Below, piece by piece: positions 45,154 through 64,000 of a DNA stretch of 64,000 nucleotides. Location: NCBI GenBank assembly GCA_001038565.1, contig LFJO01000010.1, positions 154,759 to 218,758 on the forward strand, written 5' to 3'. The translations under genes were made by a program, and so were the position numbers. Under the pieces are notes generated by a model. The model was not told the origin of the DNA and searched no databases. It saw only the letters and a list, made by a program, of their open reading frames with translations. Every line of letters starts with the position of its first letter. Position 1 is the stretch's first letter. This DNA is from Alkalihalobacillus pseudalcaliphilus (GTDB lineage: Bacteria > Bacillota > Bacilli > Bacillales > Bacillaceae_D).

Positions 45154-45857
45154 TCCACTTCTACTCCTATAAATTGATAACCTATTCCCCAAACGGTTTG
45201 AATAAACAAGGGAGAACGTGATGACTCTTTTAGCTTAGCTCGCAAACTTTTCATATGGACAGTGACGGTTTTGCCATCATCGAGTTCTTCTTCAAACCAA
45301 ACCTGCTCATAGATTTTACTTTTTGAGAAGGTGCTGAGCGGGTTTTTAGCGAGAAGAAAAAAGATCCCTTTTTCCTTGGCGGTTAAAACGACTTTTCCTC
45401 CATGTAATAAAATATTCTCATGTTCGAAATCGACTTGTAAGCCACCTTCATAGTTAATGATAGTAGGTGTGTGGCTAGATTGCTGATAACGATTATATCT
45501 ACGTAAATGTGAATAAATACGTGCGGTCAACTCATCTAAACTAAAGGGCTTTGTTATATAATCGTCTGCACCGATATGAAAACCTTGTATTTTCTGATGA
45601 TCCTCTGAATGAGCACTGATCATAAGTAAAGGTATATCTGAATGATTTCGAATCGACTGGATGAGTGTATAACCGTCTAATCCGGGTAACATTAAATCAA
45701 TTAAAGCTAAGTTGAATTCGTGTTTATGAAAGTCCTCAAGACCTTCATGTCCAGTTGTCGACCAAGTAACATCAAAGCCATTTTTCCTTAAATGATCGCA
45801 AATGATTCGAGCAATTTCCTGGTCATCTTCTACTAATAGAATCGCATTGTTCTGCAT
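45150..45857 (-). CDS. OmpR-family response regulator
   Basis: A 235-residue regulator. The receiver has LVEDDQE, the acceptor Asp in LIDLMLPGLDG and the KPFSLDE switch; the C-terminal winged helix ends GYQFIGVEVE. Order is regulator, kinase, lipoprotein, M48 protease, small membrane protein, all leftward and nearly without gaps, so one operon. The immediate upstream region before the tandem repeat should carry the promoter. Confidence 0.93.
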   Translation of the reverse strand: MQNNAILLVEDDQEIARIICDHLRKNGFDVTWSTTGHEGLEDFHKHEFNLALIDLMLPGLDGYTLIQSIRNHSDIPLLMISAHSEDHQKIQGFHIGADDYITKPFSLDELTARIYSHLRRYNRYQQSSHTPTIINYEGGLQVDFEHENILLHGGKVVLTAKEKGIFFLLAKNPLSTFSKSKIYEQVWFEEELDDGKTVTVHMKSLRAKLKESSRSPLFIQTVWGIGYQFIGVEVE

Positions 45858-46028
45858 CCAAATTCCCTCCTAAAACTAACACCATTATACTAGTTTTCGA
45901 CAAAAGCGTTTTTAATTTTATAATTTCTTTAGAATTAAGGATGCATGGGGCTACGTGAAGTAGAAGAGGGTGCAACTTTGAGGGAATTAGAATCGCGGTA
46001 TTGGTCGGGCTGTAGAAGTGGAAAGCCC

Positions 46029-46262
46029 GAGCAAACGCCGAATCGTGGGGTTGCGAGCTGGAAAAGCGGGAGTAACCCCGAGCAAACGCGGAATCGCGGG
46101 GTTGGGGGAGGGAAAAGGTGGAGTAACCCCGAGCAAACGCGGAATCGCGTGGTTGCGAGCTGGAAAAGCGGGAGTAACCCCGAGCAAACGCGGAATCGCG
46201 GGGTTGCGAGCTGGAGAAGCGGGAGTAACCCCGAGCAAACGCAGAATCGCGTGGTTTCAAGC
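46029..46262. repeat. 51-bp tandem repeat array (about 4.6 units)
   Basis: Units begin GAGCAAACGC at 46029, 46080, 46131, 46182 and 46233, spaced exactly 51 bases; the last is partial. Each unit has AACCCCG ... CGGGGTT and GCG/CGC arms, so it can fold as a hairpin. It is far richer in GC than its surroundings. Because 51 is a multiple of 3, several frames stay open on both strands; I do not regard them as genes. The array lies between the response regulator and the aldo/keto reductase, both leftward; the 415-base gap holds nothing else. Confidence 0.85.
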
Positions 46263-47591: not shown

Positions 47592-48677
47592 CTAATTAAT
47601 ATAATCCGCAATACCATCCGCTATTGATTTAGCGACTTGATCTTGGTATTGTTCGGTAACGATGATTTGGGCATCGTGTTGGTTGCTTACAAAACCTAAT
47701 TCTAATAGGATAGCAGGCGCCATACTCTCTCTGATTACTTTAAAAGGCACTTGTTTAATACCTCGATCGTGTAGTGGAAGTCCTGAGCGATTGGATGCAT
47801 GAATCGATTCTGCTAATGGTAATGAAGGAGTGGAGTAATAATAAGTAGTAAACCCATTAGCTGCAGGCTCTAATGAAGAGTCATAATGGATACTGATGAC
47901 AGCATCGGATTGCTGTTTATTTGCAATGGCAACTCTCTCATCTAATGTAACGGTCACATCACTGTTTCTTGTTGCGACAACATGGGCTCCACGTTGTTCA
48001 AGTTCAGCTACCACTTTATTCGCTGTTTGTAACACGATGGTTTTCTCGAAAATATGTTTGAATCCTATTGCTCCGGGGTCTCGACCGCCATGTCCAGGGT
48101 CAATCACGATCGTATAACCATTCAAGTTATTTGAATGACCTGTTTGTGTTCGATTTGGTTCCTGTGATGCTGGTTTTTCTGTTAACCAAGAGGCAATCCA
48201 GCCAGTTTCAGCATCATTTACTCGAATTTGTAGCCAATCATTTTCTTTATGTAACACTTGAAATTCGTTACCTATATTTGCTGAACCTATTACTTGGCTG
48301 TTAATGGAAGGCGCAGAACGAATGATGCTATTTTCACGCTGTATGGTCACAACGTCTTTATGAGTGTTATCGTTTAAGTCTAAACTTCCTTGTACGGGTG
48401 CTAAATAATAACTTGCAACCCAGGCAACCTCTCCCTGGTAATAGGTTTGTATCCAACCGAACTGTTCGTTAAAAGAAACTAGTTGATCCCCCTTTTTTAA
48501 TTGTCCAACTATGTCACTTGTCCCAGAAGGTTCACTGCGCAGATTGAGAGTTTGAGAGATTACTTCATATTTTTCTGAGGCGTTGGCTACTACCGATTCG
48601 TTTAAAGAAAAGACAAAGAATAAGAAAAGGGCTCCCGCACAAATCAAAAAATGAGACATAATGTGTCTATTAAACAT
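47592..48677 (-). CDS. N-acetylmuramoyl-L-alanine amidase with two SH3b domains
   Basis: A 361-residue exported wall hydrolase. After a signal peptide (cleavage near VVANA) there are two bacterial SH3 domains (about 35-95 and 108-170; SQTLNLRSEPSG, NSIIRSAPSIN) that bind the wall. An Amidase_3 domain spans about 185-360 with VIDPGHGGRDPGAIG, the zinc His and Glu of this fold, ISIHYDSS and LLELGFVSNQHDA. The ATG at 48677 is seven bases after AGGAGG; the frame also opens two codons earlier with TTG. Confidence 0.92.
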   Translation of the reverse strand: MFNRHIMSHFLICAGALFLFFVFSLNESVVANASEKYEVISQTLNLRSEPSGTSDIVGQLKKGDQLVSFNEQFGWIQTYYQGEVAWVASYYLAPVQGSLDLNDNTHKDVVTIQRENSIIRSAPSINSQVIGSANIGNEFQVLHKENDWLQIRVNDAETGWIASWLTEKPASQEPNRTQTGHSNNLNGYTIVIDPGHGGRDPGAIGFKHIFEKTIVLQTANKVVAELEQRGAHVVATRNSDVTVTLDERVAIANKQQSDAVISIHYDSSLEPAANGFTTYYYSTPSLPLAESIHASNRSGLPLHDRGIKQVPFKVIRESMAPAILLELGFVSNQHDAQIIVTEQYQDQVAKSIADGIADYIN

Positions 48678-48889
48678 GATCAATCCTCCTAGTCTATGAT
48701 TTATTAGGAGCTTACCCGTTCCAAACCTTCGTGTAACAGTTTAAGTAGAATAACCCCTTCATTACCTAGAAAGTTAAGTCTCACTCTAGGTCTTAAACAT
48801 GTAAAAGTGATAGAGTGAAAAAGTCATTCCTTTTGCCTAGTAAAAAGTCGATGTGCATACCCGAAGCTAAATTTGACACAATTTTTATA

Positions 48890-49011: not shown

Positions 49012-50379
49012 TTGAATAAAAAGCTAGTTGTTGTTTTAGTCGGTATGATCGGGATCGTAGGATTTTTGTTTTATTGGTTGTATCAGCAAGAGCAAAAAGA
49101 AGAGGCTAATCAAGTAGATTCTAGTATAAGTGGCTATGATGAGCTTATGGAGTTGGCTCGAGATACGTATGCTTTTTTTGTGGAATTTACAGATGAGCGG
49201 ACTGGATTAACAGCAGATCGTGTTGATTTATTTGATGGGGAAGATGTATATGAACAAACATCCCCGACGAATATAGCGATGTATGCTTTAAGTCTGGTTG
49301 GCGCTGTTGAGTTAGGTTTTGAAACGAAGGGCCAAGCAAGTGAGAAGATAGCGATTCTGCTGAACACATTGGATGAAATGAAAACGTGGAACGGCTTATA
49401 TTATAATTGGTACTATACACATAATGGAGAATTGATGAATGATTGGGGTCAGTTCATTTCAACGGTGGATAACGGGTGGTTAACGGCAGCCTTAATGGTG
49501 GTAAGTGAGTATTTTCCTGAGCATGATGGGCAAGCGGAACAGCTCGTCTCCAATATGGATTACTCGAAACTTTACAGCAAGTCAGTTGGACAATTTCATG
49601 GTGGTTATGATGTCGCTGAAGGCAAACTAACCGATCACCATTACGGCCTTCTTTATTCAGAAACGAGAATTACGAGCTATGTAGCGATAGGGAAAGAGGA
49701 TGTACCACAGGAACATTGGTGGAAGTTATATCGTACATTCTTACCTGAGGATACGTGGCAAGCACAAGTTCCTACAGGTGACTATGTGAAATACGATGGC
49801 CATTCTATTTATCAAGGTCATTACGAGTATGAAGGGATTCAGTATGTACCAAGTTGGGGAGGAAGTATGTTTGAGGCCTTAATGCCAGCCTTACTTATTG
49901 ATGAAAAATCACTTGCTCCTCAAGGGTTAGGGTACAATAATGAACAGCATGTAAAAGCTCAAATTAAATATGCTGAGCTTAATGACTGGGACATTTGGGG
50001 GTTTTCACCCGCAGCTATTGAAGGAAATTACTTAGAATTTGGTGTACCCGTTCTAGGTGCAGGTGAAGGTTATCCTGACAACGGAACCGTTACTTCACAC
50101 GCATCCTTGCTTGCGTTAGAATATGCATTCGAAGAAGTTTTAAGCAATGTAGCGACATTGAAAGAGTACGGTGCATATGGTGAATTTGGTTTATACGATA
50201 CGGTAAGTATCCAATCAGGCAAGGTTCACCAAACATACTTAGCACTTGATCAAGGGATGATCCTAGCATCAATTGTCAATTATTTAACGGATGGTAGGTT
50301 ACGTCACTACTTTCATCAACATGATGCTGGCGAAAAACCGATGCATTTATTAAAGGAAGAACAATTTATCCTCGAATAA
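49012..50379 (+). CDS. Membrane-anchored glucoamylase-family protein (PF10091/GH144- or GH189-like)
   Basis: A 455-residue protein with an N-terminal signal anchor (residues 5-23) and an outer (alpha/alpha)6-like domain. TSPTNIAMYALSLVGAVELG, YNWYYTHNG, FISTVDNGW, SWGGSMFEALMPALL, WGFSPAA and LALDQGMILASIVNYL follow, in order, the motifs I know from the glycoamylase domain of cyclic beta-1,2-glucan synthases and from GH144 beta-1,2-glucanases. It is therefore probably a hydrolase or transglycosylase of beta-1,2-glucan or a similar glycan; the substrate is inference. Acidic catalytic residues cannot be fixed by eye. Start is TTG 49012 after GGAGGGTG. It shares an operator with the LacI gene and transporter genes after it. 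Confidence 0.72.
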   Translation: MNKKLVVVLVGMIGIVGFLFYWLYQQEQKEEANQVDSSISGYDELMELARDTYAFFVEFTDERTGLTADRVDLFDGEDVYEQTSPTNIAMYALSLVGAVELGFETKGQASEKIAILLNTLDEMKTWNGLYYNWYYTHNGELMNDWGQFISTVDNGWLTAALMVVSEYFPEHDGQAEQLVSNMDYSKLYSKSVGQFHGGYDVAEGKLTDHHYGLLYSETRITSYVAIGKEDVPQEHWWKLYRTFLPEDTWQAQVPTGDYVKYDGHSIYQGHYEYEGIQYVPSWGGSMFEALMPALLIDEKSLAPQGLGYNNEQHVKAQIKYAELNDWDIWGFSPAAIEGNYLEFGVPVLGAGEGYPDNGTVTSHASLLALEYAFEEVLSNVATLKEYGAYGEFGLYDTVSIQSGKVHQTYLALDQGMILASIVNYLTDGRLRHYFHQHDAGEKPMHLLKEEQFILE

Positions 50380-50400
50380 AAGTAATTTTTGAAAACGCTA

Positions 50401-50429
50401 TTGTATTCGTTTTCACCATCGTATATAAT
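50401..50429 (+). promoter_or_regulatory. Promoter of the second LacI gene
   Basis: TTGTAT (50401-50406), 17 bases, TATAAT (50424-50429). The operator 50433-50448 covers the expected start of transcription, so the regulator probably represses itself. TGAAAACG ... CGTTTTCA (50391-50414 area) forms another spaced dyad around the -35. Confidence 0.65.
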
Positions 50430-50432
50430 TTA

Positions 50433-50448
50433 ATTGAAACGTTTCAAT
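50433..50448. promoter_or_regulatory. LacI-type operator 2
   Basis: ATTGAAACGTTTCAAT is a perfect 16-base palindrome just after the -10 box of the regulator promoter. Confidence 0.75.
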
Positions 50449-50488
50449 AGATTGAAATGGTTTAGATTATGACAAAGAGGTTAGAGCA

Positions 50489-51457
50489 TTGCCAACATTA
50501 AAAGATGTCGCAAAAAAAGCCAGTGTAAGTATCGCAACAGCTTCATATGCGATCAATGGAAGCAAGCTAATTACAGAAGAGACTAGAAAAAAAGTGTTAC
50601 AAGCTGCAAAGGAGATCGGTTATCGGCCTAATGGTGTTGCCAAAAATCTTAAGAAAAACCGCAGTGAGATAATTGGCCTCTTTCTTAGTGGCTTTACCGG
50701 ACCGTTCTTTAATGAGCTTCTAGAAGGAATTCAAGATGTTGTGATACAACGAGGATATGAAATGGTCGTTTGTGCAACAGTTGACAAACATCGCTTACTG
50801 ATTGAAAAGCATGTCGATGGTGCGATTATCTTAAACTATCATATTTCCGACCAATTGGTAGAGGATATTGCCCAAACGGGACTCCCTATGATCTTATTAG
50901 ATAGGGAAATTTCTTCTGAGAATACGCAAAATGTAATTTTACCGAATGAAGAAGGGATTACGTATTCAGTAGAACATCTTGTTCAAAAAGGGCATAAACG
51001 CATTGGTTTTATCGCGGGTGCGGATGATTCTTATGATGGTGAAACGCGTCTAAAAGGTTTTAGGAAAGCGATGAAAACCCATGGCCTCATATTTCATGAA
51101 GAGGATTTAATTCGTGCAGATTTTACCGAAATAAGTGGCTTATTAAGTATGAAGCACTATTTACACAGTTATCAAGATTATCCAACTGCTTTTATTTCAG
51201 CCAATGATGAAATGGCGATGGGAGCCATCAAGGCGGCCAAGGAACATGGCATGAGTATCCCTGATGATATGGCTTTTATTGGCTTTGATGATATTGCTTT
51301 GGCTTCATACTTTCAACCGCCTTTAACGACTGTTCGAGTGCAAAAGAAGCAGTGGGGTATGGAAGCAGCTAATCGCTTATTTGACATGTTGGAAGGTAAA
51401 AAGGCAAGTGTTAGCCATTCTGTTCCAATCGAGTTTATTGAGCGTCAAACTACTTAG
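50489..51457 (+). CDS. LacI-family regulator of the 49-64 kb locus
   Basis: A 322-residue repressor. HTH at LKDVAKKASVSIATASYAING with hinge-helix residues RPNGVAKNLK, then a sugar-binding sensor with RHGxxR-type GHKRIGFIAG, DGETRLKGF and FIGFDDIALASYFQPPLTTV. It starts at TTG 50489, eight bases after AAAGAGG. Two perfect operator copies flank it and a third lies before 49012, which suggests that it controls the whole locus. Confidence 0.9.
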   Translation: MPTLKDVAKKASVSIATASYAINGSKLITEETRKKVLQAAKEIGYRPNGVAKNLKKNRSEIIGLFLSGFTGPFFNELLEGIQDVVIQRGYEMVVCATVDKHRLLIEKHVDGAIILNYHISDQLVEDIAQTGLPMILLDREISSENTQNVILPNEEGITYSVEHLVQKGHKRIGFIAGADDSYDGETRLKGFRKAMKTHGLIFHEEDLIRADFTEISGLLSMKHYLHSYQDYPTAFISANDEMAMGAIKAAKEHGMSIPDDMAFIGFDDIALASYFQPPLTTVRVQKKQWGMEAANRLFDMLEGKKASVSHSVPIEFIERQTT

Positions 51458-51508
51458 TTCATAAAGAACAACTCATACAGAAAGATAAAATATCTTCTGT
51501 ATTGCCTT

Positions 51509-51558
51509 TAATTGAAACGTTTCAATTATTTGAACTTTTTTACATTTTTATGTTAAAT
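51509..51558 (+). promoter_or_regulatory. LacI-type operator 3 and promoter of the transporter operon
   Basis: AATTGAAACGTTTCAATT lies within a perfect 20-base palindrome at 51509-51528. It ends just before a promoter TTGAAC (51530-51535), 17 bases, TTAAAT (51553-51558). An untranslated leader of about 150 bases follows. Confidence 0.65.
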
Positions 51559-51721
51559 TTTCTGACATTAAACGCAAACAATAGAATGAAATGTCATTCA
51601 AACGACCATAACACAAACGTATGACTGTAAAGCATCATATATGGTAGGAGCGAGATTGATTGTATGTTCGCATCTCATCGCAGCAATTTCAATTAAAACG
51701 ATATGAAAAGGAGCAAAAACA

Positions 51722-53110
51722 ATGAAGAAAAAAGCACTTGCTTTATTAACAGCAACAGCAATGCTAGCATTAGCTGCTTGTGGTAACGACGATAGTAATG
51801 ATACAAACAATGACAGCACGTCCCCTGATGGAGGAGATGAGCAAGTAACACTTTCTGTTGCAAGCTGGACGTTCGGTACAGAACAAGATTACAACCTTGA
51901 AAGAGCGATGATTGACGCTTTTGAAGAAGAATATCCACATATCACGGTTGAAATTGATGAATCTATTGATGGTGCAGATTGGAATGGTTCATTATCAACT
52001 GCGGCAAGTGCAGGGAATATGCCAGATTTATTCATGCTTGCACAAGTACCAACAGGATTATCGAACGATTGGTTATTACCATTAAATGAAGTGACTGAAG
52101 GCGACGCGGATTTTGATAATATTCCAGAAGCGGTTAGACAAGCGGTAACGTATGATGAGCAAGCTTACGCAATTCCAGCAGCTCAACATTTCTTAGGATA
52201 TTTTGTAAACAAAGATTTATTTGAAGAAGCGAATTTAGACGCACCAAGTTTAGGTATGAGTCTTGATGATTTTACTGATGCCGTTCGTTCTATTACAAAC
52301 ATTAACAGTGGAACGGTAGGACTGAATCATCCACATACGATTTTAGACTGGTATCCAGCTGCGGCAAATGAAGATTTAAGTTGGTACACATACAGTGATG
52401 AATCAGGATTTAATATCAGTTCAAATGAGTTTATTGCGGGTGTGAATTTAGCCAATTCGTTTATGTCAAATGATTATAATTATGAGACTTTATCAGAAGA
52501 TCAGAAAGCAAGCTTTAATGGTGAAGATGAAAATGAAGTTTGGTTTAACGGTGGAATCGCCTTCAAATGGGATGGTTCTTATGCAGCAGGAATCTTTGGT
52601 GAAACAGCAACGTTTGATTGGGACTTCGTTGGTATTCCTGGTGACCGTGTCGTAATGACAAATGACTTCTTTGGTATCGCACAAAGCACTGATCACCCAG
52701 AAGAAGCTTATCTTTTAGCAAAATGGTTATCATTTGGTGAAGATGGATTCATGAAGCGTATGGAATTAGTAGATGGTGAAGAAGGTTATAGCTTAAGTTC
52801 ATTACCGATGACAACGAATCAAACGGTTTTAGATTCTTACTTTGAAAGAGTTCCTGTAGAAGGAATTAAACAAGCTTATGAAAATATAGACCAAGCTGTA
52901 GTGGAACCTGTTAAAACTGTGCCTGGTTATGTACAAGCTCGTTGGGAAGCACCAACTGGTATTTCAGTAGGTGAAGAAGCGAATGCAAGTATTGCAGCTT
53001 TATTAGATGCAGCTGTTCGTGGAGAAATCAATATTGAAGATTACGCAAGTCAAATTAATGAATTAGCAAATCAAAAGTATGAAGAAGGACTTCAAGCTAT
53101 TAGTGAATAG
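51722..53110 (+). CDS. Carbohydrate-binding lipoprotein of an ABC importer
   Basis: A 462-residue family 1 binding protein. Lipobox LAAC with Cys20, an Asp/Asn linker, then the two-lobe domain (VASWTFGTEQDYN; MPDLFMLAQVPTG; YAIPAAQHFLGYFVNKDLFEEA; FKWDGSYAAGIF). AAAGGAG precedes the ATG. Ligand unknown; it is the first gene of the operon under operator 3 and probably serves one of the permease pairs after it. Confidence 0.87.
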   Translation: MKKKALALLTATAMLALAACGNDDSNDTNNDSTSPDGGDEQVTLSVASWTFGTEQDYNLERAMIDAFEEEYPHITVEIDESIDGADWNGSLSTAASAGNMPDLFMLAQVPTGLSNDWLLPLNEVTEGDADFDNIPEAVRQAVTYDEQAYAIPAAQHFLGYFVNKDLFEEANLDAPSLGMSLDDFTDAVRSITNINSGTVGLNHPHTILDWYPAAANEDLSWYTYSDESGFNISSNEFIAGVNLANSFMSNDYNYETLSEDQKASFNGEDENEVWFNGGIAFKWDGSYAAGIFGETATFDWDFVGIPGDRVVMTNDFFGIAQSTDHPEEAYLLAKWLSFGEDGFMKRMELVDGEEGYSLSSLPMTTNQTVLDSYFERVPVEGIKQAYENIDQAVVEPVKTVPGYVQARWEAPTGISVGEEANASIAALLDAAVRGEINIEDYASQINELANQKYEEGLQAISE

Positions 53111-53123
53111 GTTATACGATACC

Positions 53124-53147
53124 CAGGGGCTAGAGCCCCTGAGTTTT
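53124..53147 (+). terminator. Stem-loop after the binding-lipoprotein gene
   Basis: CAGGGGC and GCCCCTG pair around TAGA, followed by AGTTTTATA. The short U-run suggests partial termination or mRNA protection, giving more binding protein than permease. Confidence 0.6.
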
Positions 53148-53259
53148 ATATATCTATTTAGGCCATAACGAGCATTCAAACGGTTGATGTTCGCTCGGAA
53201 AAATCTGAATACTCCTATAACCAACTAGGAGTAGCTTTTAGAAATTAGGAGGTATAACG

Positions 53260-56202
53260 ATGAAATCTAAGATATTGTTGTGGTCGTTCATCTTATTATT
53301 CTTTTCACCACATTTTGTGGCTGTTGCAGATGAGGCAGATGGGGCCGTTGAAACGACTGCACAAGTCATAGAACAAAACTACCACCTAACCCTTGAAGAA
53401 TGGAAGAATCAAGGGATTGATAGCACAGAACCATTTTTTCAGGCTATCAACCCTTCTTCTTTTATAATGGAAGATCGTCAGCAGTTAGTTGAGTCTTCGG
53501 ATAGTGAAGGCTATGGAGATCGTGTTTTCTATTGGCATAATCAAGAGTCCGTGGTTGTTGAAGTAGAAGTTGAGGAAGAAGGTTTATACGAGTTAAGTTT
53601 TGATTATTATCCTTTAGGAGATTTAATTGTGCCGATAGAAGGTGCGATCGAAGTGAACGGAGAGTACCCGTTTTTTGAGAGTAGGAGAATTGTCTTTCCG
53701 GTTAACTGGCAAAATGAAAGTAATGACTTTGATATAGACCGTTTTGGTAATGAAATTATCCCGAAACAAGTTCCACAGGAAGAATGGCATCACATTAAAG
53801 CATTAGATTCTAGCCATATGCAAAGCCGTCCTTTGAAGTTTCATTTAGAAGCAGGCAGCAATGAAATTCAACTTGAAAATTTACGTGGGGAACTATTGTT
53901 AGGGGATGTTTTTGTTACATCAGTAACAGATACTCCTACATATGAACAATATTTACAAGATGGAAAAGGATTAGCTTTTGAAGGCGATTATCTTACTTTT
54001 GAAGCAGAATATCCTTTTTATAAGAATAGCTCTTATGTTCGTCCAACATCTGTCCAAGATCCTTCTGTTGTCCCGTACGAAAGTGATCGTCAGTTATTAA
54101 ATACGTTTGGTGGCGATTCGTGGATGAAGCCGGGGCAAAAAGCAACGTGGGAAGTGGAAGTACCTGAAGCCGGCTATTATCAATTAACATTGAAGGTGAA
54201 ACAGAACATCGGAACGAGTGCGATTAGCTATCGTACATTATCAATCAATGGGGACATTCCATTTTTAGAGGTTGAGCAATACCCTTTTAGTAATCGAAGT
54301 GAGTGGTATAACGAAACATTTAGTCATGAAAACGGAGAACCATTTTATTTCTTTTTTGAAGAAGGAAAAAATGAAATTACGTTAGAGGCAGATGCAACTC
54401 CTAACGCCCGAGTATTACGAACGATAGACGAAGTAATGGCTGGTATTGAAGAATTATCACTCGATATACGTAAGCTAACGGGGAATCAGCAAGACCGTTC
54501 AAGAGATTGGGTTATCAGTGATTATATCCCTGGAATCGATGTAAGATTAACAGAATGGGCCAAAATGTTAGAGGTAGAAGTGAGCTATTTAGAAGAGATG
54601 AATGATGGAAATGAGACAACATCGATTACGTCGATGCGTATGGCGATTGATAAGCTCTTAACGTTAGCAAAAGAGCCGGATCGTATTCCTAGTCAAATGT
54701 CTCAACTTTCAGAAGGATCAAATTCATCGGCCCAGCTTTTAGGAAATATTATTCAAACGCTGCAAGCCCAGCCGTTAACAATTGACCGCTTTTACCTCCA
54801 TACGAGTGATGACTTACCAAAAGCGGAAGCAGGTTGGTGGACAAAATCGAAGGAGTCAGTTGTTCGTTTCATTAACTCATTTAGGCAGGATAATTTAGCG
54901 ATGGGTAATGTTTCGGATCAGACTGTTGAGATTTGGGTGAATCGACCTCGACAATATGTTGAGCTTTTACAAAATATGGCCGACCAAAACTTCACACCTG
55001 AAACAGGAATTGAAGTGAAATTTTCACTTATGCCAGATGAAGGAAAGTTAATCTTGGCTAGTGCTGCAGATACTCAACCTGACTTAGCAATCGGAATAAG
55101 TAATTGGTTACCGTATGAATTGGCTATTCGTGGGGCGGCGGTTGATTTAAGGCAATTTGAAGAGTTCAAAGAGCTTGGTCAGGAGTTTTCCCCTGGAGCA
55201 TTCTTGCCCTATATCGTAGAAGATGGCTTATACGCATTACCAGAAACACAAGATTTTAATGTTCAATTCTATCGTCGCGATATTATGGAAGCTCTCGATA
55301 TTCCTATACCCGATACATGGGATGATGTAACCTCTATTTTGCCTGAATTACAGAGGTATGGGTTTAATTATTACACACCTATTGCTGGTGCTGTTGCTTT
55401 TAAGCCATTCCAAACGACCGCTCCGTTTATTTATCAGCATGGTGGCGACTTATACGAGTCGGACGGAATCGGAACAACGATTGATAGTGAAGAATCGTTA
55501 CAAGGTATTCAATTTATGTCGGAATTAAATACGTTATATAGTACACCATTACAAGTTCCTAACTTTTATAACCATTTCCGTTATTCAACTTTGCCAATTG
55601 GTATCGCTAACTTTGAAACGTATGTGCAACTTACTGCAGCTGCACCTGAAATTTCAGGATGGTGGGAGCTATCACCTCATCCGGGTGTGGAGCAAGAAGA
55701 TGGCAATGTCGCGAGATGGGCGATGGGTTCTGGACAGTCAGCGATGATTTTTGAAGGTAGTGATTTGCAGGACGAAGCTTGGCAAGTTTTAAAATGGTGG
55801 ATGTCAAGTGAAGTTCAAACAGAGTTTGCAACTAGTTTACAGACATTATATGGCCCTGAATATATGTGGAATACAGCCAATATCGTTTCTTTTGGACAAT
55901 TACCATTACCACAGGAGCATAAAGATGTTGTGTTGGAACAATGGGAGTATTTAAAAGAGGTGCCAAAAACTCCTTATGCTTATATGGTTGAGCGTGAAAT
56001 TAGTAATGTGTGGAATACGATCGTTTTTGATGGTGAAACGACACGTTCAGCTGTTGATGATGCCGTCGTTAATATTGATAGAGAAATGCGTAGAAAGTTA
56101 GAGGAATTTGGATATATCGAAAATGGGCGTGTTGTAAAGCCATATCCAATCCCAACAATTGAACTGGTAGAAGGGTGGTTAGAAATAGATGAAGACAATT
56201 AG
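53260..56202 (+). CDS. 980-residue exported fusion: two carbohydrate-module-like domains and an ABC binding-protein domain
   Basis: A signal peptide (cleavage near FVAVA) without a lipobox Cys, so it is exported but not lipidated. Two related beta-rich domains lie at about residues 55-215 and 235-380; both have the pattern [20 protein letters not shown] / [15 protein letters not shown], as in galactose-binding-like CBMs. A helical linker (about 390-530) follows. A family 1 binding-protein domain spans about 560-900 ([59 protein letters not shown]). No membrane helix or anchor is seen at the C-terminus. It overlaps the next permease gene by 14 bases. The architecture is far larger than normal binding proteins (about 420). 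Confidence 0.78.
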
Positions 56203-57079
56203 AAATCATAGTAGTACAGCGATATTTCTAGCCCCTTACTTATTACTATTTCTTATTTTTATCGTTTTGCCGGTTGTAGCGGCGATTGGATTATCGTTCA
56301 CGTATTTTAATGCTATCGAGACGCCTAGCTGGGTAGGTTTGAGTAACTATGTCAACCTGATGACTCAAGATGGGGTGTTTATGGAATACATCATTCCTAA
56401 TACCCTCATCTTTGCTTTAATTGTTGGGCCTGGTGGATACGTGCTTTCCTTTATCTTAGCGTGGATGCTCGCACAAATTTCCAAAATACCTAGAATGATA
56501 TTAGCACTGATAATTTACTCTCCATCGATGACTGCCGGTGTTGCGATGGGTGTTGTGTGGAGAATTATCTTTAGTGGTGATGAGACGGGTTATTTAAATA
56601 GTATGTTAATATCCATCGGGGCTGTCTTAGAGCCTGTTCAGTGGCTTCAATCACCTGAGCATTTGATGATGATTATGATTATTGTCACGATTTGGGGCAG
56701 TATGGGTGTCGGGTTCTTAGCGATGTTATCAGGAGTTTTAAATATTAATAAAGAAATCTATGAAGCAGCTTATATTGATGGAATAAAAAATAGATTCCAA
56801 GAAATCATTTATATTACGATTCCTTCTATGAAACCACAAATGTTGTTCGGTGCTGTAATGGCCGTAGTTGGTACATTTTCTGCAGGGGCGATTGGTGTTG
56901 AGTTATCTGGTGCTAATCCGACACCACAATATGCCGGGCAATTAATGGTTAACCACCTAGAGGATTATGGATTTATCCGTTATGAGATGGGATATGCCGC
57001 AGCCATTTCTGTTTGTTTACTTATCTTTATCTACTTATTTTCCAAAGTGGCATGGCGTTTATTTGGAGAAAAGGATTAG
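56189..57079 (+). CDS. Sugar ABC permease (MalF-like), first pair
   Basis: A 296-residue CUT1 permease with six helices and the EAA loop [23 protein letters not shown]. It lacks the extra N-terminal helices of GanP. It overlaps the 980-residue protein gene, so the two are coupled. Confidence 0.9.
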
Positions 57080-57112
57080 AGTAGTGGAATTTACGTATTA
57101 GGGGTGTATACA

Positions 57113-57988
57113 ATGTCATCTTTTCAAGGTACAAAAATCAATCCTAGTAAGTTTCACCGTAGCCAAATTAAGTTCTATCTATTTTTATTACCATTAGCTG
57201 TGTTTATGGCGCTGCCAATCATTTATATCTTTATGCACGCATTTAAACCACTTGATGAGTTATTTGCTTATCCACCCAGGTTTTTTGTTGAAAAACCAAC
57301 GATGCAAAATTTTGTGGATTTGTTTAGCATAACAAGCGCTACAGGTGTTCCTGTTTCTAGGTATTTATTTAACAGTTTAATTATCACAACAGCCGTCGTT
57401 ATATTAACGGTCTTAATTAGTACAATGGCTGGTTATGCGTTATCAAAAAAACGTTTTAAACTCAAGAAAACCATTTTTGAAATTAATACGTTAGCGTTAA
57501 TGTTTGTACCAGCTGCTGTAACGATTCCAAGATATTTATTAATGGATGAGATTGGTCTATTAGATAATTTCTTTGCTCATATTTTTCCTCTTTTAGCGAT
57601 GCCGGTCGGGCTGTTTTTGGTAAAACAATTTATTGACCAAATTCCAAATGAGCTCATTGAGGCGGCACAAATGGATGGAGCAACGGATTATCGGATTTTT
57701 TGGCAAATCGTTATGCCACTTGTAAAACCAGCAGTAGCCACTATTGCTATTCTTTCCTTCCAACTTGTTTGGAATAGTGTAGAGACTTCCGTTTTATATG
57801 TGAATGATGAAAATTTAAAAACGTTCAGTTTCTTTATGACAACACTTGCTTCCGATACAGGTAATACGGTTGCGGGACAAGGAATGGCGGCAGCGGCGTC
57901 ACTAGTGATGTTTGTTCCAAACTTAGTCATCTTTATTATTTTACAGAGTCAAGTCATGAATACGATGGCTCACTCAGGTATCAAATAA
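57113..57988 (+). CDS. Sugar ABC permease (MalG-like), first pair
   Basis: A 291-residue CUT1 permease with six helices and the EAA loop [23 protein letters not shown]. The ATG at 57113 is six bases after AGGGGTG; GTG 57104 overlaps that site. It pairs with the preceding permease. Confidence 0.9.
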
Positions 57989-58007
57989 CCAATAGGAGGT
58001 AGGGGAC

Positions 58008-60029
58008 ATGAAACAGTTAATTGCATCCATTTTTAGCCTACTGCTTGTCTTATTGTTACCCATACAAACCTTTGCCTCTGATTCTGTTGCTTATAAAACA
58101 GAAACCTTATCAGGTGAAGGTGAAGTGATTGAGACACAGACGGCCTATATTCCTATTGGATTATTTGGACAAGGAATGGATTTAATGAATCCTGAGGATC
58201 TTTATATTACATCTAATAATGAGGTTTATATTGCTGATTCAGGGAATCAGGTCGTCTTTCGATTAGCAGATAATGGGGACCTTCTCCAATCGTATGGAGA
58301 AGGTATCCTACAGCAACCTTTAGGGGTATTTGTAGATAGTGAAAATCATGTGTATGTCGCCGATTATGGACATGAGACGGTGTTTAAATTTAGTGAGACG
58401 GGAGAGCTGTTGTTTGAATATACTCACCCGGAATCCCCGTTATTTGGGACTAACTCTCCTTATAAGCCACAGAAGCTTTCGGTCGATAATCGAGGCAATC
58501 TCTACATTATTGGAGAAGGGTCAACAAATGGAATCATTCAATTAAATCAAGACGGTGAGTTCCTTGGGTTTTTTGGTGTTAATACAACAAGGCCAACGAT
58601 TGGAACATTCCTGACCGATTTGTTAACGACTGAAAGACAAAGAGCTAGTATGTTTATGCGTGTGCCACCTGCTCCCAATAACATTACGATAGATGAACGT
58701 GGTTTATTATACACAATAACTTCAGGCACAGAGTGGGAAGCGATTCGTCAGCTCAATATAGCTGGATTAAATATGCTGCCAACGGATATCACTGACGCGA
58801 CCAATTTACGTGATATTGCGATTGGACCAATTGGGAATATTTATACCGTTGCAAATAATGGTGTCATTTATGAATATGATCGAGCTGGAGATTTGTTATT
58901 TCAATTTGGAGGCCGAGAAGATGGCAGTAATCGCTTAGGATTATCGATGGATCCTTCAAGTTTAGAAGTAGATGAGGTAGGTCGCCTTTATTTAGCAGAT
59001 AAAGAGCAAGGGATTATTCAAGTCTTTGAACCTACCAATTTCACAACAGTCCTTCATCAAGGGCTAGCCCTCTATGCAGAAGGGCATTATATTGAGAGTG
59101 AAGAGTATTGGCATGAAATCTTACGCTTGAATTCATCGTTTGGTCTTGCTCATAAGGCATTAGGTCAAGCTTTATACAAACAACAAGAATATGATGAGGC
59201 AGCTGCAGAATTTCAATTAGCACATGATAGAGAGAATTACTCCGATGCTTTTTGGGAAATTCGCTATGTATGGCTACAAGAAAATCTCAGCAAAGTCTTT
59301 ACAGTCCTCTTCATTTATTTAGGACTACGGACTGTTATAAGAGTGGTAGATAAACGCTCAAATAAATTAGAACCACTTAAAAAGAGAAAAGAAGCTTTTA
59401 AAGCAAAGAAATTAATTAGTGAGTTATTGTTTTTGTTTAGGTTCTTAAAGAAACCGATTGATAGCTTATATTATTTAAGAGTGAATGAACAGGCATCGAT
59501 ACTATCGGCTACGATTTTATATTTTGTATTAATCGTTGAATATATTTTAACGTTATATTGGACAGGTTTTTTATTTAGTACAAAGTCATCAGAGAATATT
59601 CATCTGTTTTTTGAACTAGGGACTATTCTAATTCCACTTACTTTATTTATCGTAACGAATTATTTGGTAAGTACGATAACGAGTGGAGAGGCAAGCTTCA
59701 AGCAAGTATATATCGGGACGATCTATGCGCTTGCACCGATTGTGATTTTTATTATCCCGATAACGTTAGTATCCAATGTATTAACGTATAATGAAGCATT
59801 TATATATTATTTCCCTTTACAAATCGTCATGGTTTGGTCACTCATTAATCTATTCTTAATGCTAAAAGAACTACATGATTTCTCAGGGATGGGAACAGTC
59901 AAAAATTTATTACTCACGATATTTGGAATGCTCATTCTCGTATTGATTTTCTTTGTTTTATATGTATTAATCGACCAACTCGTTCAATTTATTTGGTCAC
60001 TTGTTTCGGAGGTGATTCTTCGTGTTTAG
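58008..60029 (+). CDS. NHL-repeat / TPR / Yip1-like membrane protein
   Basis: A 673-residue protein. Signal peptide to TFA; an outer beta-propeller of NHL repeats at about 45-345 (DLYITSNNEVYIADSGNQVV; GVFVDSENHVYVADYGHETV; EVDEVGRLYLADKEQGIIQV); a TPR pair at about 347-405 (HQGLALYAEGHYIESEEYW; LGQALYKQQEYDEAAAEFQ); one helix near 425; then a Yip1-like membrane domain of about five helices (480-670). The topology would put the propeller and TPR outside. I know no characterised member of this fusion. AGGAGG precedes the ATG; the end overlaps the next gene by eight bases. Confidence 0.72.
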   Translation: MKQLIASIFSLLLVLLLPIQTFASDSVAYKTETLSGEGEVIETQTAYIPIGLFGQGMDLMNPEDLYITSNNEVYIADSGNQVVFRLADNGDLLQSYGEGILQQPLGVFVDSENHVYVADYGHETVFKFSETGELLFEYTHPESPLFGTNSPYKPQKLSVDNRGNLYIIGEGSTNGIIQLNQDGEFLGFFGVNTTRPTIGTFLTDLLTTERQRASMFMRVPPAPNNITIDERGLLYTITSGTEWEAIRQLNIAGLNMLPTDITDATNLRDIAIGPIGNIYTVANNGVIYEYDRAGDLLFQFGGREDGSNRLGLSMDPSSLEVDEVGRLYLADKEQGIIQVFEPTNFTTVLHQGLALYAEGHYIESEEYWHEILRLNSSFGLAHKALGQALYKQQEYDEAAAEFQLAHDRENYSDAFWEIRYVWLQENLSKVFTVLFIYLGLRTVIRVVDKRSNKLEPLKKRKEAFKAKKLISELLFLFRFLKKPIDSLYYLRVNEQASILSATILYFVLIVEYILTLYWTGFLFSTKSSENIHLFFELGTILIPLTLFIVTNYLVSTITSGEASFKQVYIGTIYALAPIVIFIIPITLVSNVLTYNEAFIYYFPLQIVMVWSLINLFLMLKELHDFSGMGTVKNLLLTIFGMLILVLIFFVLYVLIDQLVQFIWSLVSEVILRV

Positions 60030-62295
60030 AAAGTATAAATGGAGTGCTATCTTACTTGTTGTCTTGCTATTACCATTTCCTATTTTGGCAGCAATCTCTG
60101 ATGTGGATCCGGATACTGAGGTTTCAGAACTTCAAGAGGAGCTTCAAGATGAGGCATTACGTTACGCATCGAATCAGTTTACATTACCTGAGGATGACGT
60201 AGAGTGGGAGCAAGAGGAAGTTCAATTGGATGGTTACGAACAAATAGCAGAAAATGGAAACCTGATTTTATATGTGGAAGAAGAATCACTAGCAATGGTT
60301 GTAGAGGACAAGAGAAACGGTTACTACTGGACCTCTGGCGTTGCTGCTGAACATGATTATCAGTTAAATACAACGTGGACGAATTTAGCCCGGTCGGCTG
60401 CGACGATTCAATATTTAGATGCAGGTGGTAGCACCCAATCTGAAAGTATTTTAACCAATGAAATTGATGTGCAACTTACTGCAAATGAGCATGGTTTCCT
60501 GGCCCGTATTCCTTTTGATGCTGGAATTACGATTACATTAGAAGTGATGTTAACACCTGAGGGTTTAGACATAACGGTCCCTCATAGTGAAATCGTAGAA
60601 GATGAGACAAACCAGTTAATTTCATTAAGGCTATATCCATTTTTAGGAGCTGTTCATAAAGATGAAGTTGCTGGCTATATGTTCATTCCTGATGGAAGCG
60701 GAGCATTAATTCGTTTTGAAGATGGCAATGTGGGGGCCTTAAGTACTTATCAAGGGTTTGTGTATGGAAAAGACTTGGCATTTACACGTACAACACAAAA
60801 TAATGATGCACGTACGAATCCAGAACATACGATTACTATGCCTGTTTACGGAATGGTTCATGGAGCCAACGAGCAGGGCTTTGTAACCGTATTAAAGGAT
60901 GGACGTGAGTTTAGTGAAATTATCGCGTACCCATCTGGGGTCTCGACTGACTTTAATTGGGTGACTTCACAATATCATTATCGCTATGAATATTATCAAC
61001 CAACTAGTCAAAGTATGAGTGGATTTAACACGTATCAAATAGAAATGAATGAGTTTGATATCGTCCAATCAATTACGCTACTTGACAATGAGCAAGCCAA
61101 TTATGTGGGAATGGCCCACGTATATCAACAAGATTTACTTGAGTCTGGCACTTTAGAAGAAAAACAGGATGTTGTTGATATTCGCTTAGATGTTCTTGGT
61201 GGAGAAGTAAAGACGGGTTTATTATGGGACTCTATTCATCCTATGACTGAAATTAATCAACTAGCAAACTATGTTGAACGCCTGCAGCAACAAGGTATTG
61301 AAGATATGCATCTTGTTTATCATGGATGGACAAAGGGTGGTTTAACAGGAACGTTACCTAATAGATTCCCTGTAGATAATCGTTTAGGTGGGAAGTCAGA
61401 GATGCAAGATGTAACGTCCACTATGGCAGAAAAGGAAGTTCCCTTTTACTTAGGAACAGATTTTTCAACAGCACATGCCGACGGTAAAGGATATTCAGGT
61501 AGAACAGATGTGGCAAGAAGGTTTAACGCGGAGACAATGGTTGTCCAACAAGGAGAACAACAGTCCTTTTTATTAAACCCTAGCAAGTCATATGAACTAG
61601 CCATAGCAGACATCGAACCATTTCAAGAGCATGGAGTAGAGCGGTTAGCGATTAATAACAGTGGCCATCTTTTGTTTTCTAATTTTGCGGGACACACGCC
61701 GATGACAAGGATGGATACGAAATCAGTCTATGAGCAAATGTTTGTTGAACTCAGTGAGAATATCGGCCCATTAGCCTTATCTGAACCATTTGATTATTTA
61801 TGGAAATATGCGGATAAGTATTTAGATATTCCGATGTATTCTTCTGGATATCGCTATGCATCTGATACAGTACCGTTTTTGCAAATTGTGCTGAAGGGCT
61901 ATATTCCTTATTACGCTCCACATTCCAATTTCCACTTTAATGCGAATGAAGAGCTACTGAGAATGATTGAATTTGGGGCTTATCCGTCTTTCTATTTAAC
62001 CGAGCAGCCTTCACACTTACTGATGAATACACCATCAAGTTCTCTTTATACATCTCAGTTTGATGACTGGGAGGCAGATATTGTTCATCAATACGAACGA
62101 GTAAAGGATAGTCTTGGTGAAGTCGAAGGTGCTTCCATTACCTCTAGAATTGTTCATGATGTCGGTGTGGTTGAGATTGGGTATTCAAACGAAAAATCAA
62201 TTTTTGTTAATTATACGAATAAGCCTTTTCCTCTTGATGGTGGACAAGTAGAAGCTGGAGATTTTGTTGTCGTGGATCGGGGGGATGCATCATGA
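60022..62295 (+). CDS. DUF5696-like exported protein, possible glycoside-hydrolase fold
   Basis: A 757-residue protein with a signal peptide (to ILA) and no lipobox. Residues about 70-390 are beta-rich (LYVEEESLAMVVEDKRNGYYW; VAGYMFIPDGSGALIRFEDG). From about 400 there is an alternating alpha/beta region (DSIHPMTEINQLANYVERLQQQ; DMHLVYHGWTKGGL; VPFYLGTDFSTAHADGKGYSG) like a TIM barrel of a retaining hydrolase, and a C-terminal beta part. From memory it matches proteins labelled DUF5696. Its start is GTG 60022 with the near-perfect GGAGGTGATTC six bases before. It is translationally coupled on both sides. Confidence 0.68.
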   Translation: MFRKYKWSAILLVVLLLPFPILAAISDVDPDTEVSELQEELQDEALRYASNQFTLPEDDVEWEQEEVQLDGYEQIAENGNLILYVEEESLAMVVEDKRNGYYWTSGVAAEHDYQLNTTWTNLARSAATIQYLDAGGSTQSESILTNEIDVQLTANEHGFLARIPFDAGITITLEVMLTPEGLDITVPHSEIVEDETNQLISLRLYPFLGAVHKDEVAGYMFIPDGSGALIRFEDGNVGALSTYQGFVYGKDLAFTRTTQNNDARTNPEHTITMPVYGMVHGANEQGFVTVLKDGREFSEIIAYPSGVSTDFNWVTSQYHYRYEYYQPTSQSMSGFNTYQIEMNEFDIVQSITLLDNEQANYVGMAHVYQQDLLESGTLEEKQDVVDIRLDVLGGEVKTGLLWDSIHPMTEINQLANYVERLQQQGIEDMHLVYHGWTKGGLTGTLPNRFPVDNRLGGKSEMQDVTSTMAEKEVPFYLGTDFSTAHADGKGYSGRTDVARRFNAETMVVQQGEQQSFLLNPSKSYELAIADIEPFQEHGVERLAINNSGHLLFSNFAGHTPMTRMDTKSVYEQMFVELSENIGPLALSEPFDYLWKYADKYLDIPMYSSGYRYASDTVPFLQIVLKGYIPYYAPHSNFHFNANEELLRMIEFGAYPSFYLTEQPSHLLMNTPSSSLYTSQFDDWEADIVHQYERVKDSLGEVEGASITSRIVHDVGVVEIGYSNEKSIFVNYTNKPFPLDGGQVEAGDFVVVDRGDAS

Positions 62296-63158
62296 AGCAA
62301 CTATCATTAAAAACGAAAAAAAGCTTAATCGGGTATGCATTTATCCTACCTTGGATTATTGGCTTTCTCGTTTTTACATCGATTCCTTTATTCTATTCGT
62401 TGTTTTTAAGCTTTCAAGATGTCACGATTACGACGGCAGGAATTCAAACGAAATTTGTTCAATTTGAGAACTATGAATATGCTTTTGCGGTTGACGCTCA
62501 ATTTACACAGATATTTTTAGTTTTCTTACGTGAATTAGCTTTATCTGTACCAATCATTATCGTATTTTCATTAATTATTGCTTTGTTATTAAATCAACAA
62601 ATTCGTTTTAAAAACTTCTTTAGAACGGTGTTCTTTTTGCCTGTTATTATCTCTAGTGGACCTGTAATTAGCAAGTTAACGGAGCAAGGAGTTACTTCAA
62701 TCCCCTCTATTGAAGACTATGCGATTTTTGCAACCTTAATGGCAGGAACGGATGGTTTTATCAATACGGTAATCATCTATTTAATGGACAATTTAATTAT
62801 GATTTTATGGTATTCAGGAGTTCAGATTCTTATTTTCCTTGCTGCTTTGCAGAAGTTAGACAAGCAAATCTATGAGTCAGCTAAAATTGACGGTGCTTCG
62901 AATTGGGAAAGCTTTTGGTTAGTTACACTACCTAGTATTTTTCCGATGATTATTGTTAATACGATCTTTACCATCGTGATGTATTCAATTTTTGCTGTTA
63001 ATCCAGTCATTACCCACATTCAAAGTAATATGTTCAGAATCGACACAGGATTTGGTTATGCATCGGCTTTATCATGGATATATTTTCTCGTGATTACAGT
63101 TGTCATAGCAGTAAGTGTAGGAATTCTGTCAATTCGAACAAGAAAAAAGTACACATAA
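62292..63158 (+). CDS. Sugar ABC permease (MalF-like), second pair
   Basis: A 288-residue CUT1 permease: six helices and the EAA loop IYESAKIDGASNWESFWLVTLP. ATGA overlap with the DUF5696-like gene. An unusual insert (TEQGVTSIPSIEDYAIFATLMAGT-like, in the third outer loop) distinguishes it from the first pair. Confidence 0.9.
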   Translation: MKQLSLKTKKSLIGYAFILPWIIGFLVFTSIPLFYSLFLSFQDVTITTAGIQTKFVQFENYEYAFAVDAQFTQIFLVFLRELALSVPIIIVFSLIIALLLNQQIRFKNFFRTVFFLPVIISSGPVISKLTEQGVTSIPSIEDYAIFATLMAGTDGFINTVIIYLMDNLIMILWYSGVQILIFLAALQKLDKQIYESAKIDGASNWESFWLVTLPSIFPMIIVNTIFTIVMYSIFAVNPVITHIQSNMFRIDTGFGYASALSWIYFLVITVVIAVSVGILSIRTRKKYT

Positions 63159-63171
63159 AGGGTGGATTCAA

Positions 63172-64000
63172 ATGATTAAAAATGGAACCTCTCAAACAGA
63201 CAAAAAGAATACAAATAAATATGACTGGCTGAAGGTGAAACGCTTTTTTCTTGGTATGCAAGGAAAGGATGGATTCCTTTTAAAGTTTATTGTATATGGT
63301 TTATTAATTACGATCGGTTTTGTCTATTTATACCCACTTATCTACATGGGCTCTTATAGCTTAAAATCACTGGATGATTTGTTAAACCCACTTGTTAATT
63401 GGGTACCAACCGGATGGTATATTGAAAACTATACTCGTGCCATGCAAGTGCTCGATTTTTGGCCAACGCTGTTACAAACCTTGTATGTGACGGTTTTACC
63501 TGCACTTGTTCAAACAGCCGTTGCTGGAGTAATCGGTTATGGTTTTGCAAGATTCCAATTCCCATTAAAGAAGACATTATTTGTTTTAGTACTCGCGACC
63601 TTTATTATACCGCCTCAAGTGCTGATGATTCCTCGTTATGTATTTTTTAATGAATTAGGAATCCTAGGGAATATTCAATCATTCCTGTTACCAGCTTTAT
63701 TTGGGCAAGGGTTAAATAGTGCGATTTTTATCTTGATTTTCTATCAATTCTTTAAGATGATACCTCAATCATTAGAGGAGGCCGCACAACTTGATGGTGC
63801 TGGATACTTAAGAATTTTCGCTACGATTGCGATTCCTATGGCTGGTCCGGCCATCATCATTTCATTTCTCTTTTCATTTGTATGGTATTGGAATGAAACG
63901 TCACTTGCGGCCATTTATTTCGGTAACTCATTAACAACATTACCGTTAGAGCTCAATCGTTTCGTCGCCACATACGAGCAAATGTATGCTGGAAATTTAG
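63172..64000 (+). CDS. Sugar ABC permease (MalG-like), second pair, cut by window end
   Basis: At least 276 residues are visible, the frame stays open at the last base. It starts MIKNGTSQTDKKN after AAGGGTGG, has the first helix at about 36-58, and shows the EAA loop SLEEAAQLDGAGYLRIFATIAIP. It pairs with the preceding permease. More of the locus is expected beyond the window. Confidence 0.9.
   Translation, partial: MIKNGTSQTDKKNTNKYDWLKVKRFFLGMQGKDGFLLKFIVYGLLITIGFVYLYPLIYMGSYSLKSLDDLLNPLVNWVPTGWYIENYTRAMQVLDFWPTLLQTLYVTVLPALVQTAVAGVIGYGFARFQFPLKKTLFVLVLATFIIPPQVLMIPRYVFFNELGILGNIQSFLLPALFGQGLNSAIFILIFYQFFKMIPQSLEEAAQLDGAGYLRIFATIAIPMAGPAIIISFLFSFVWYWNETSLAAIYFGNSLTTLPLELNRFVATYEQMYAGNL

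Follow-up and report, generated by a model that had tools for sequence, protein, structure and literature searches.

The window analysed here, a 64,000-nucleotide stretch of the Alkalihalobacillus pseudalcaliphilus genome (contig 15, positions 154759–218758, in a 4.49-Mb genome of 22 contigs), ends in a carbohydrate locus that, to judge from its sequence, is probably a system for beta-1,2-glucan utilisation built around a portable and conserved double-importer unit, by which long chains would be imported and cut inside the cell. The unit consists of seven genes, lettered D to J: a 980-residue fusion containing a substrate-binding protein (SBP) domain (SBP980, D), a first pair of permeases (E and F), a protein with NHL, TPR and Yip1-like parts (G), a DUF5696 protein (H) and a second pair of permeases (I and J). 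Each enzyme of the locus is of a known kind; the novelty lies more in the import unit, a conserved form of the MalFGK-type importer that has not been characterised. Pfam profiles of ten open reading frames (ORFs) recover every gene of the original prediction, which had been made from the DNA letters, at the coordinates it gave. The tight packing that it described from position 53260 on also holds, with adjacent genes overlapping or lying 13–24 bases apart, and the same profiles agree with it in showing neither an ATPase nor a phosphorylase among these ORFs.

Substrate of the Locus

The window stops within the second MalG-type permease gene, which ends on the plus strand at position 218898 of contig 15, 140 bases past the window. 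The original prediction had favoured a beta-1,2-linked or similar glycan and named the DNA beyond 64000 as the place to look for a GH94 phosphorylase or a GH3 enzyme; both are present there, together with a GH144 relative, all within about 8 kb. The GH144 relative (403 residues, contig positions 219095–220306) scores 242.9 bits against PF10091, and its best match in the Protein Data Bank (PDB) is 8xul (XcSGL) with 204 bits, versus 28 bits for the GH189 structure 8wy1. It keeps the general acid, with a glutamate at the column of E217 of the first enzyme of the locus. The best PDB match of the GH3 protein (718 residues, 220421–222577) is Lin1840, with 787 bits over residues 3–709, the next different protein scoring 666 bits. 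The SOGP-type GH94 protein (1112 residues, 223454–226792) carries the SOGP_N, SOGP_2nd, GH94 catalytic and SOGP_4th domains, all over cut-off, and matches 5h3z best, with 1004 bits over residues 11–1108; this entry, titled 'Uncharacterized protein', is a 1,2-beta-oligoglucan phosphorylase. A hydrophobic N-terminus is absent from all three proteins; they are predicted to be cytosolic, and the GH144 is predicted to be endo-acting. The presence of a GH144, a Lin1840-like GH3 and an SOGP-type GH94 just past position 64000 therefore makes beta-1,2-glucan a well-supported substrate of the locus, as originally proposed.

Conservation and Distribution of the Seven-Gene Unit

In the family to which the window belongs, 11 of 41 genomes have DUF5696 over the cut-off, as do 35 of 398 genomes of its class (four of the 35 by rows of 25–30 bits alone) and 39 of 398 genomes of its phylum, some through weak rows alone; in the class and phylum searches, as in the class search for SBP980, at most three candidates were scored per genome. 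A pattern scan for DUF5696 relatives over one genome each for 84,980 species gave 532 stretches, the best 80 of which were kept. Profiles were used to label 134 loci (14 from the family, the 80 named ones, 20 from the class and 20 from the phylum), or 126 distinct loci after merging those with a shared DUF5696 sequence. The 80 named loci, from Bacilli, Clostridia and Haloplasma-type records, are those nearest to the window protein, which biases the sample towards relatives; diversity is greater among the loci from the class and phylum searches. Identical DUF5696 genes connect genomes of the window family with named strains of Shouchella and its relatives, and the class is accordingly taken to be Bacilli.

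The order D-E-F-G-H-I-J on one strand is found at 111 of the 126 distinct loci, and at one more (L173) with F in two reading frames. The order is swapped to G-H-I-J-D-E-F at four loci, G-H-I-J occurs without D-E-F in the fetched stretch at another four, and the unit is cut by contig ends at six. Median gaps are −4 bases between D and E, 9 between E and F, 14 between F and G, −8 between G and H, −4 between H and I and 9 between I and J. At 109 of the 126 loci a small SBP is encoded no more than 2.5 kb from the unit; of the 17 without one, several are truncated at contig ends. The search for the gene set in other genomes that had been suggested thus finds the same order in diverged genomes, which argues that the arrangement is not due to chance.

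The two halves of the unit are tied together closely within the class. With at most three candidates scored per genome, the N-terminal, non-SBP part of SBP980 was found at 52 places in 31 of the 398 class genomes. Strong DUF5696 hits fall in exactly these 31, and at all 52 places DUF5696 lies on the same strand, 7.07–7.64 kb downstream. The sole strong DUF5696 place without SBP980 in this sample is a contig-end fragment; the pairing took in DUF5696 rows of at least 30 bits, with one split gene represented by its first half only. For the seven proteins, pairwise distances correlate with one another at 0.83–0.97 over 105 loci and the window (the loci with usable lengths among 115 complete ones), at median identities from 27% for DUF5696 to 56% for the first permease, E; part of this correlation could come from shared descent alone.

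In 13 genomes from other classes, for which every candidate was scored, there are five with 8–20 DUF5696 matches each. These five (G497, G568, G516, G475 and G597, with contig-end fragments included in the counts) are genomes of 2.2–3.0 Mb and represent a large expansion of the DUF5696 transporter type in other classes of the phylum.

Binding Proteins, Permeases and ATPase

SBP980 (53260–56202, plus strand) has a hydrophobic signal at residues 4–24, a lipobox was not seen in it, and the SBP_bac_1 profile matches at residues 570–853. The AlphaFold2 model, built with 67 sequences, has a predicted local distance difference test (pLDDT) score of 89.7 and a predicted template modelling (pTM) score of 0.86. 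With limits taken from secondary structure, it consists of two beta-sandwich domains (about 60–225 and 245–378), a helical part (380–545) and a MalE-class SBP domain (553–951). The fold search gave Z-scores of 34–37 to MalE-class SBPs through matches that span neither the beta-sandwich domains nor the helical part. A beta-1,2-gluco-oligosaccharide binding protein, at Z 36.3, falls within this range, level or almost level with MalE-type proteins, so the fold is uninformative on the sugar and was rejected as a guide to the specificity of SBP980.

The small SBP of the locus is a lipoprotein (51722–53110, plus strand) with a lipobox recognised by eye in its N-terminus, MKKKALALLTATAMLALAAC, and a SBP_bac_1 score of 67 bits. 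Its best PDB match is 22hh (297 bits), which was rejected as a guide to its substrate, the literature matches listed being unrelated; beta-1,2-gluco-oligosaccharide binders (5ysb and others) are not among its PDB matches at E 0.001. Between the lipoprotein and SBP980 genes there is a terminator-like hairpin on the plus strand (53124–53141), with a stem of 7 bp, 6 of them G-C pairs, and a T-rich tail. It fits a possible attenuator that would let the binding protein be made in excess. The region has seven terminator-like sites against 8.9 in shuffled sequences, and the counts of the promoter and terminator scans are not above those of shuffles.

All four permeases match BPD_transp_1, and the ATPase-coupling EAA loop is kept in their relatives. 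The loop glycine is present in 124 of 124 sequences for the first MalF-type permease (56189–57079), 125 of 125 for the first MalG-type permease (57104–57988) and 132 of 132 for each of the second MalF-type (62292–63158) and MalG-type (from 63172 to the end of the window at 64000 and 140 bases further) permeases, all on the plus strand. No ATPase was found in the locus. A UgpC/MsmX-type ATPase is encoded on contig 22 of the same genome (510 bits, cut-off 432), and in a Paenibacillus cellulosilyticus plasmid (L186) ugpC lies directly upstream of SBP980.

The NHL/TPR/Yip1 Protein and the DUF5696 Protein

The product of the gene at 58008–60029 (plus strand) combines an NHL propeller, TPR, a membrane segment and a Yip1-like membrane domain, with hydrophobic segments at residues 1–27, 429–448 and 495–671. 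NHL and TPR_2 are over the Pfam cut-offs; Yip1, at 24.2 bits, is under its cut-off of 28.6. At 29 of the 125 distinct loci that have it, the gene appears as two or more reading frames, often one with NHL/TPR and another of Yip1 size, and the Butyrivibrio annotation likewise splits it into an 'NHL repeat-containing protein' and a 'YIP1 family protein'.

The DUF5696 protein (60022–62295, plus strand) matches PF18952 with 625 bits over the whole profile (3–612 of 612) and is the only one found by the search of its own genome. It has an N-terminal membrane anchor and a body with the GH129 fold, which spans residues 74–755. The model, made from 13 sequences, is of moderate confidence (pTM 0.80, pLDDT 76). 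GH129 structures stand out in its fold search, with Z-scores of 26.9 and 26.4 versus 18 for the next rows, the closest being 5opq (Z 26.9, root-mean-square deviation 3.9, 570 aligned residues, 15% identity), and a profile search gave a weak match to NagBb (26.6 bits). The protein shares the fold of NagBb and ZgGH129, but the column to which the nucleophile was extrapolated is not conserved, and a Pfam GH129 match is lacking. In a Pfam search at E up to 0.1, DUF5696 is the only match, and GH129 (PF11308) is unmatched; this profile found nothing in 299 genomes, nor in any control, and therefore says nothing on the absence of GH129. The nucleophile was placed by extending the ZgGH129 profile alignment, which ends near residue 426, to D486 through predicted strands, with D486 taken as nucleophile from the PDB title 'D486N' alone. 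The column so extrapolated, near N545 of the window protein, holds 47 D, 25 R, 15 S, 14 G and 13 E among 133 DUF5696 sequences, while acidic residues are conserved elsewhere, at positions 224 (98%), 615 (91%) and 650 (98%). The DUF5696 protein is probably a glycosidase-fold protein that binds rather than cuts a glycan.

The First Enzyme

The first enzyme of the locus (49012–50379, plus strand) has a hydrophobic stretch at N-terminal residues 1–25 and matches PF10091 (74.5 bits) and DUF3131 (35.5 bits); together with the downstream GH144 it makes up the only two PF10091 genes found by a search of the genome. The best PDB matches by phmmer are to the transglycosylase domain of cyclic beta-1,2-glucan synthases, 8wy1 (159 bits) and NdvB (148), followed by 8xuj (76), three 'putative glucoamylase' structures (40–45) and CpSGL of GH144 (34–35). 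According to PMC12102758, 8xuj is EeSGL1 of GH192 and 8xul is XcSGL of GH144. The assignment to the beta-1,2-glucanase clan that had been made from motifs thus stands, with GH189 domains as the best solved relatives, whereas the likeness to GH144 is weak and two features of GH189 are missing.

Residue equivalences with TiCGS, counted by hand along the printed alignment, and the catalytic roles given in PMC10834661 were used for the comparison with GH189. The acid/base E1356 of TiCGS is kept as E217 (SETR in the window opposite SEAR of 8wy1), and D153 and F287 are kept as well. The nucleophile E1442 is missing, falling in a gap of the alignment (GFSP in the window versus ISES or ISEA in the synthases), the pair H1536/H1537 is replaced by L-D (ALDQGM), and about 165 residues of 8wy1/TiCGS (141–311), which hold the extra helices between helices 4 and 5, have no counterpart. 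According to PMC12102758, GH189 alone conserves these helices, which distinguish it from the adjacent Group 2 (GH193); the latter family is inverting and occurs mainly in Gram-positive bacteria. A role of the first enzyme as a GH189 cyclase was rejected, since it has neither the nucleophile nor the insertion. The enzyme encoded downstream is a plain GH144.

Free-standing homologues in Haladaptatus and Nonomuraea carry the motifs of the first enzyme, while a Rhizobium synthase carries those of GH189. Because of these common motifs and the absence of the GH189 nucleophile and insertion, the first enzyme is probably an exported, inverting, GH193-like beta-1,2-glucanase, as predicted from a comparison with GH193 by description only. 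The Haladaptatus homologue (42% identity) is encoded on a plasmid (L188:1163–12987), near a gene for a beta-glucosidase BglX and next to an ATP-binding cassette (ABC) importer, and this stretch is likely a beta-1,2-glucan locus in Archaea.

A LacI-family regulator (50489–51457, plus strand; PF00356 and PF13377) follows the first enzyme. Upstream of the locus, at 43693–45857 and 47592–48683, there are genes for a two-component system and an SH3/N-acetylmuramoyl-L-alanine amidase, named by reading of the sequence. A 51-base tandem repeat of 4.5 copies (89% match) occupies 46026–46256, between a response-regulator ORF and an aldo/keto-reductase-like ORF.

Substrate Range across Relatives

A GH144 relative is present at 40 or more of the 126 distinct loci and an SOGP at seven or more; these flank counts are lower bounds, as overlapping antisense ORFs hid genes such as the GH144 of L100. 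A hydrophobic N-terminus is absent from 35 of 45 GH144s. At two loci (L099 and L101) there is one GH144 copy with a lipobox-like start and one without a signal, and at L024 an exported GH10 and a cytosolic GH10 follow the same logic with xylan.

The flank proteins scanned numbered 49 of 90 for loci with GH144 or SOGP, 98 of 148 for loci of Bacilli type without GH144, and 82 of 122, with one protein of L170 added by hand, for the other loci without GH144 (Clostridia, Haloplasma-type, one Cohnella and genomes of other classes). The first set has 25 GH35 and four GH94 matches; PMC8861115 describes a GH35 protein with activity towards beta-1,2-glucosidic linkages. Among the 98 Bacilli-type proteins there are 25 SBPs, six each of GH10, GH43 and GH35, three GH2, two GH26 and two GH30, as well as five His_kinase and three response-regulator matches. 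The remaining 83 include 14 SBPs, nine GH31, six GH30, six GH3 and three GH26. Ten single flank proteins were also named, among them GH10, GH43, GH113, GH31 and GH2. Since GH144, GH10/GH43, GH113, GH31, GH26 or GH30 adjoin different loci, the seven-gene unit is general and the companion enzymes set the sugar. The double-importer unit is therefore not specific to beta-1,2-glucan.

At L186, the unit stands beside three LLM-class flavin-dependent oxidoreductases, an NADPH-dependent oxidoreductase and two further SBPs. The substrate of this unit is possibly not a glycan, or is an unusual sugar.

Proposed Mechanism and Alternatives

In the proposed mechanism, the exported first enzyme would cut beta-1,2-glucan outside the cell to longer oligosaccharides. 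The lipoprotein and SBP980 would feed the two MalFG-type permease pairs, both powered by a shared UgpC/MsmX-type ATPase encoded elsewhere, with the NHL/TPR/Yip1 protein and the membrane-anchored DUF5696 protein serving outside the membrane as scaffold and glycan-holding parts, and the seven-gene unit would in this way take up long chains. In the cytosol, the endo-acting GH144 would shorten the imported chains, the SOGP-type GH94 would release glucose 1-phosphate and the GH3 would finish the disaccharide. In other Bacillota, the same unit may import other glycans together with other nearby enzymes. The combination of exported endo-enzyme, importer and cytosolic endo-enzyme recurs in the window, in L099 and L101 with two GH144s and in L024 with two GH10s, where export was called by a crude hydrophobicity test. 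As argued in PMC12102758, beta-1,2-glucanases need sugar at subsites −3 and +2, and a cytosolic glucanase therefore implies imported chains of at least about five units.

Several observations weigh against long-chain import through a joint unit. In four genomes of other classes, DUF5696 has SBP980 within 12 kb in only 3 of 10, 3 of 10, 3 of 8 and 5 of 11 cases (contig ends ignored), and each of these genomes has one SBP980 without DUF5696 within 12 kb; the count covers SBP980 rows of at least 100 bits and leaves out G516, which has many contig-end fragments. Conserved order is in itself no proof of a physical complex. The unit of L186 adjoins flavin oxidoreductases, and glycosidase annotation is absent from that stretch. 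The aldouronate cluster of JDR-2 has a cytosolic GH10 with ABC transporters and, in the part of PMC4765114 consulted, no mention of extra parts; a cytosolic endo-enzyme alone is therefore no proof that long chains need the double unit. Because many DUF5696 copies of other classes have no SBP980 nearby, G-H-I-J and a small SBP together form a core that can be separated. To this core a second block, D-E-F, is almost always attached among the class genomes sampled. At L165 and L166 an ordinary SBP lies 101 and 131 bases after the G-H-I-J block. The original idea of one assembly thus keeps the conserved order at 111 of 126 loci and the constant pairing of SBP980 and DUF5696 in the class, bar one contig-end fragment, and is weakened by second halves that stand without SBP980 nearby in some genomes of other classes.

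It is less likely that the operon encodes two separate importers, each handling its own product of a single polymer (short versus long or substituted oligosaccharides, for instance), with the NHL/Yip1 and DUF5696 proteins belonging to the second importer only and no joint complex formed. The halves swapped at four loci, the second half alone at four more, the small SBP near most units and the sums for the four genomes of other classes (SBP980 within 12 kb of 14 of 39 DUF5696 copies, and 4 of 18 SBP980 copies without DUF5696 at that distance) all favour it, but the 398 class genomes, with at most three candidates scored in each, gave no SBP980 place without DUF5696, their lone strong DUF5696 being the contig-end fragment, and the seven proteins diverged in step. 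The opposite extreme is that the seven-gene unit is one membrane machine, in which the NHL/TPR/Yip1 protein and a DUF5696 glycan clamp join the two importers, and long or cyclic glycans (with beta-1,2-glucan, many-unit glucose chains or rings) enter whole and are cut inside only. This is a tentative and rather unlikely reading, and such a machine would be a Gram-positive counterpart of the Bacteroides utilisome.

An active GH129-type glycosidase at the cell surface, trimming side chains ahead of uptake, is an improbable role for DUF5696. The full-length GH129 fold, the weak NagBb match and the acidic residues kept at positions 615 and 650 point in this direction, but the extrapolated nucleophile column is variable, Pfam GH129 is not listed at E 0.1, and a single glycosidase would have to fit loci for very different glycans. 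A further alternative, in which the NHL/Yip1 and DUF5696 proteins and one permease pair sense the glycan and control expression or secretion instead of import, is very improbable: the coupling loop is kept in all four permeases and the locus carries its own LacI regulator, against which can be set the five His_kinase and three response-regulator matches among the Bacilli-type flank proteins. To our knowledge, no transport role has been assigned to Yip1-like membrane domains, which also counts for a role in sensing. Import of long beta-1,2-glucan chains by the double-importer unit, followed by cytosolic cleavage, remains the probable reading.

Relation to Known Systems and Significance

Among the closest known systems is the beta-1,2-glucan cluster lin1838–lin1843 of Listeria innocua, which has a LacI regulator, an SOGP (Lin1839), a GH3 (Lin1840) and one ABC transporter (lin1841–1843), each with a counterpart at the window locus. 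In the portion of PMC3960220 consulted, SBP980, NHL/Yip1, DUF5696 and endo-glucanase are unmentioned, whereas the window locus has all of them. Cyclic alpha-glucans of 7–17 units are taken up and then cut by a cytosolic endo-enzyme in the cycloisomaltooligosaccharide systems of Tepidibacillus and Paenibacillus 598K; this resembles the large-glucan import proposed here, but the linkage is alpha-1,6 and nothing like the seven-gene unit is mentioned in the text of PMC13084667 that was available. The window unit has the SBP and EAA-loop permeases of a MalFGK-type importer, with the ATPase elsewhere in the genome. It resembles MalEFG/MsmX-type importers in SBP_bac_1, in paired BPD_transp_1 permeases with EAA loops and in the separate UgpC/MsmX-type ATPase, and differs from this class (CUT1) by its two permease pairs, the 980-residue fused SBP, two extra extracytoplasmic proteins and the fixed order. 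A search of 5.39 million papers, with subscription journals mostly outside its scope, did not find the word DUF5696, and searches for YIP1 with ABC importer or sugar and for NHL repeat with Paenibacillus left the seven-gene unit undescribed among the matches listed (titles and starts of abstracts).

The DUF5696 family is widespread (532 stretches) yet unnamed in the literature searched, and this locus offers a genetically simple case in which to test it with a defined substrate. The locus could show what part the NHL/Yip1 and DUF5696 proteins play when sugars are taken up, and by what means long glycans enter Gram-positive cells.

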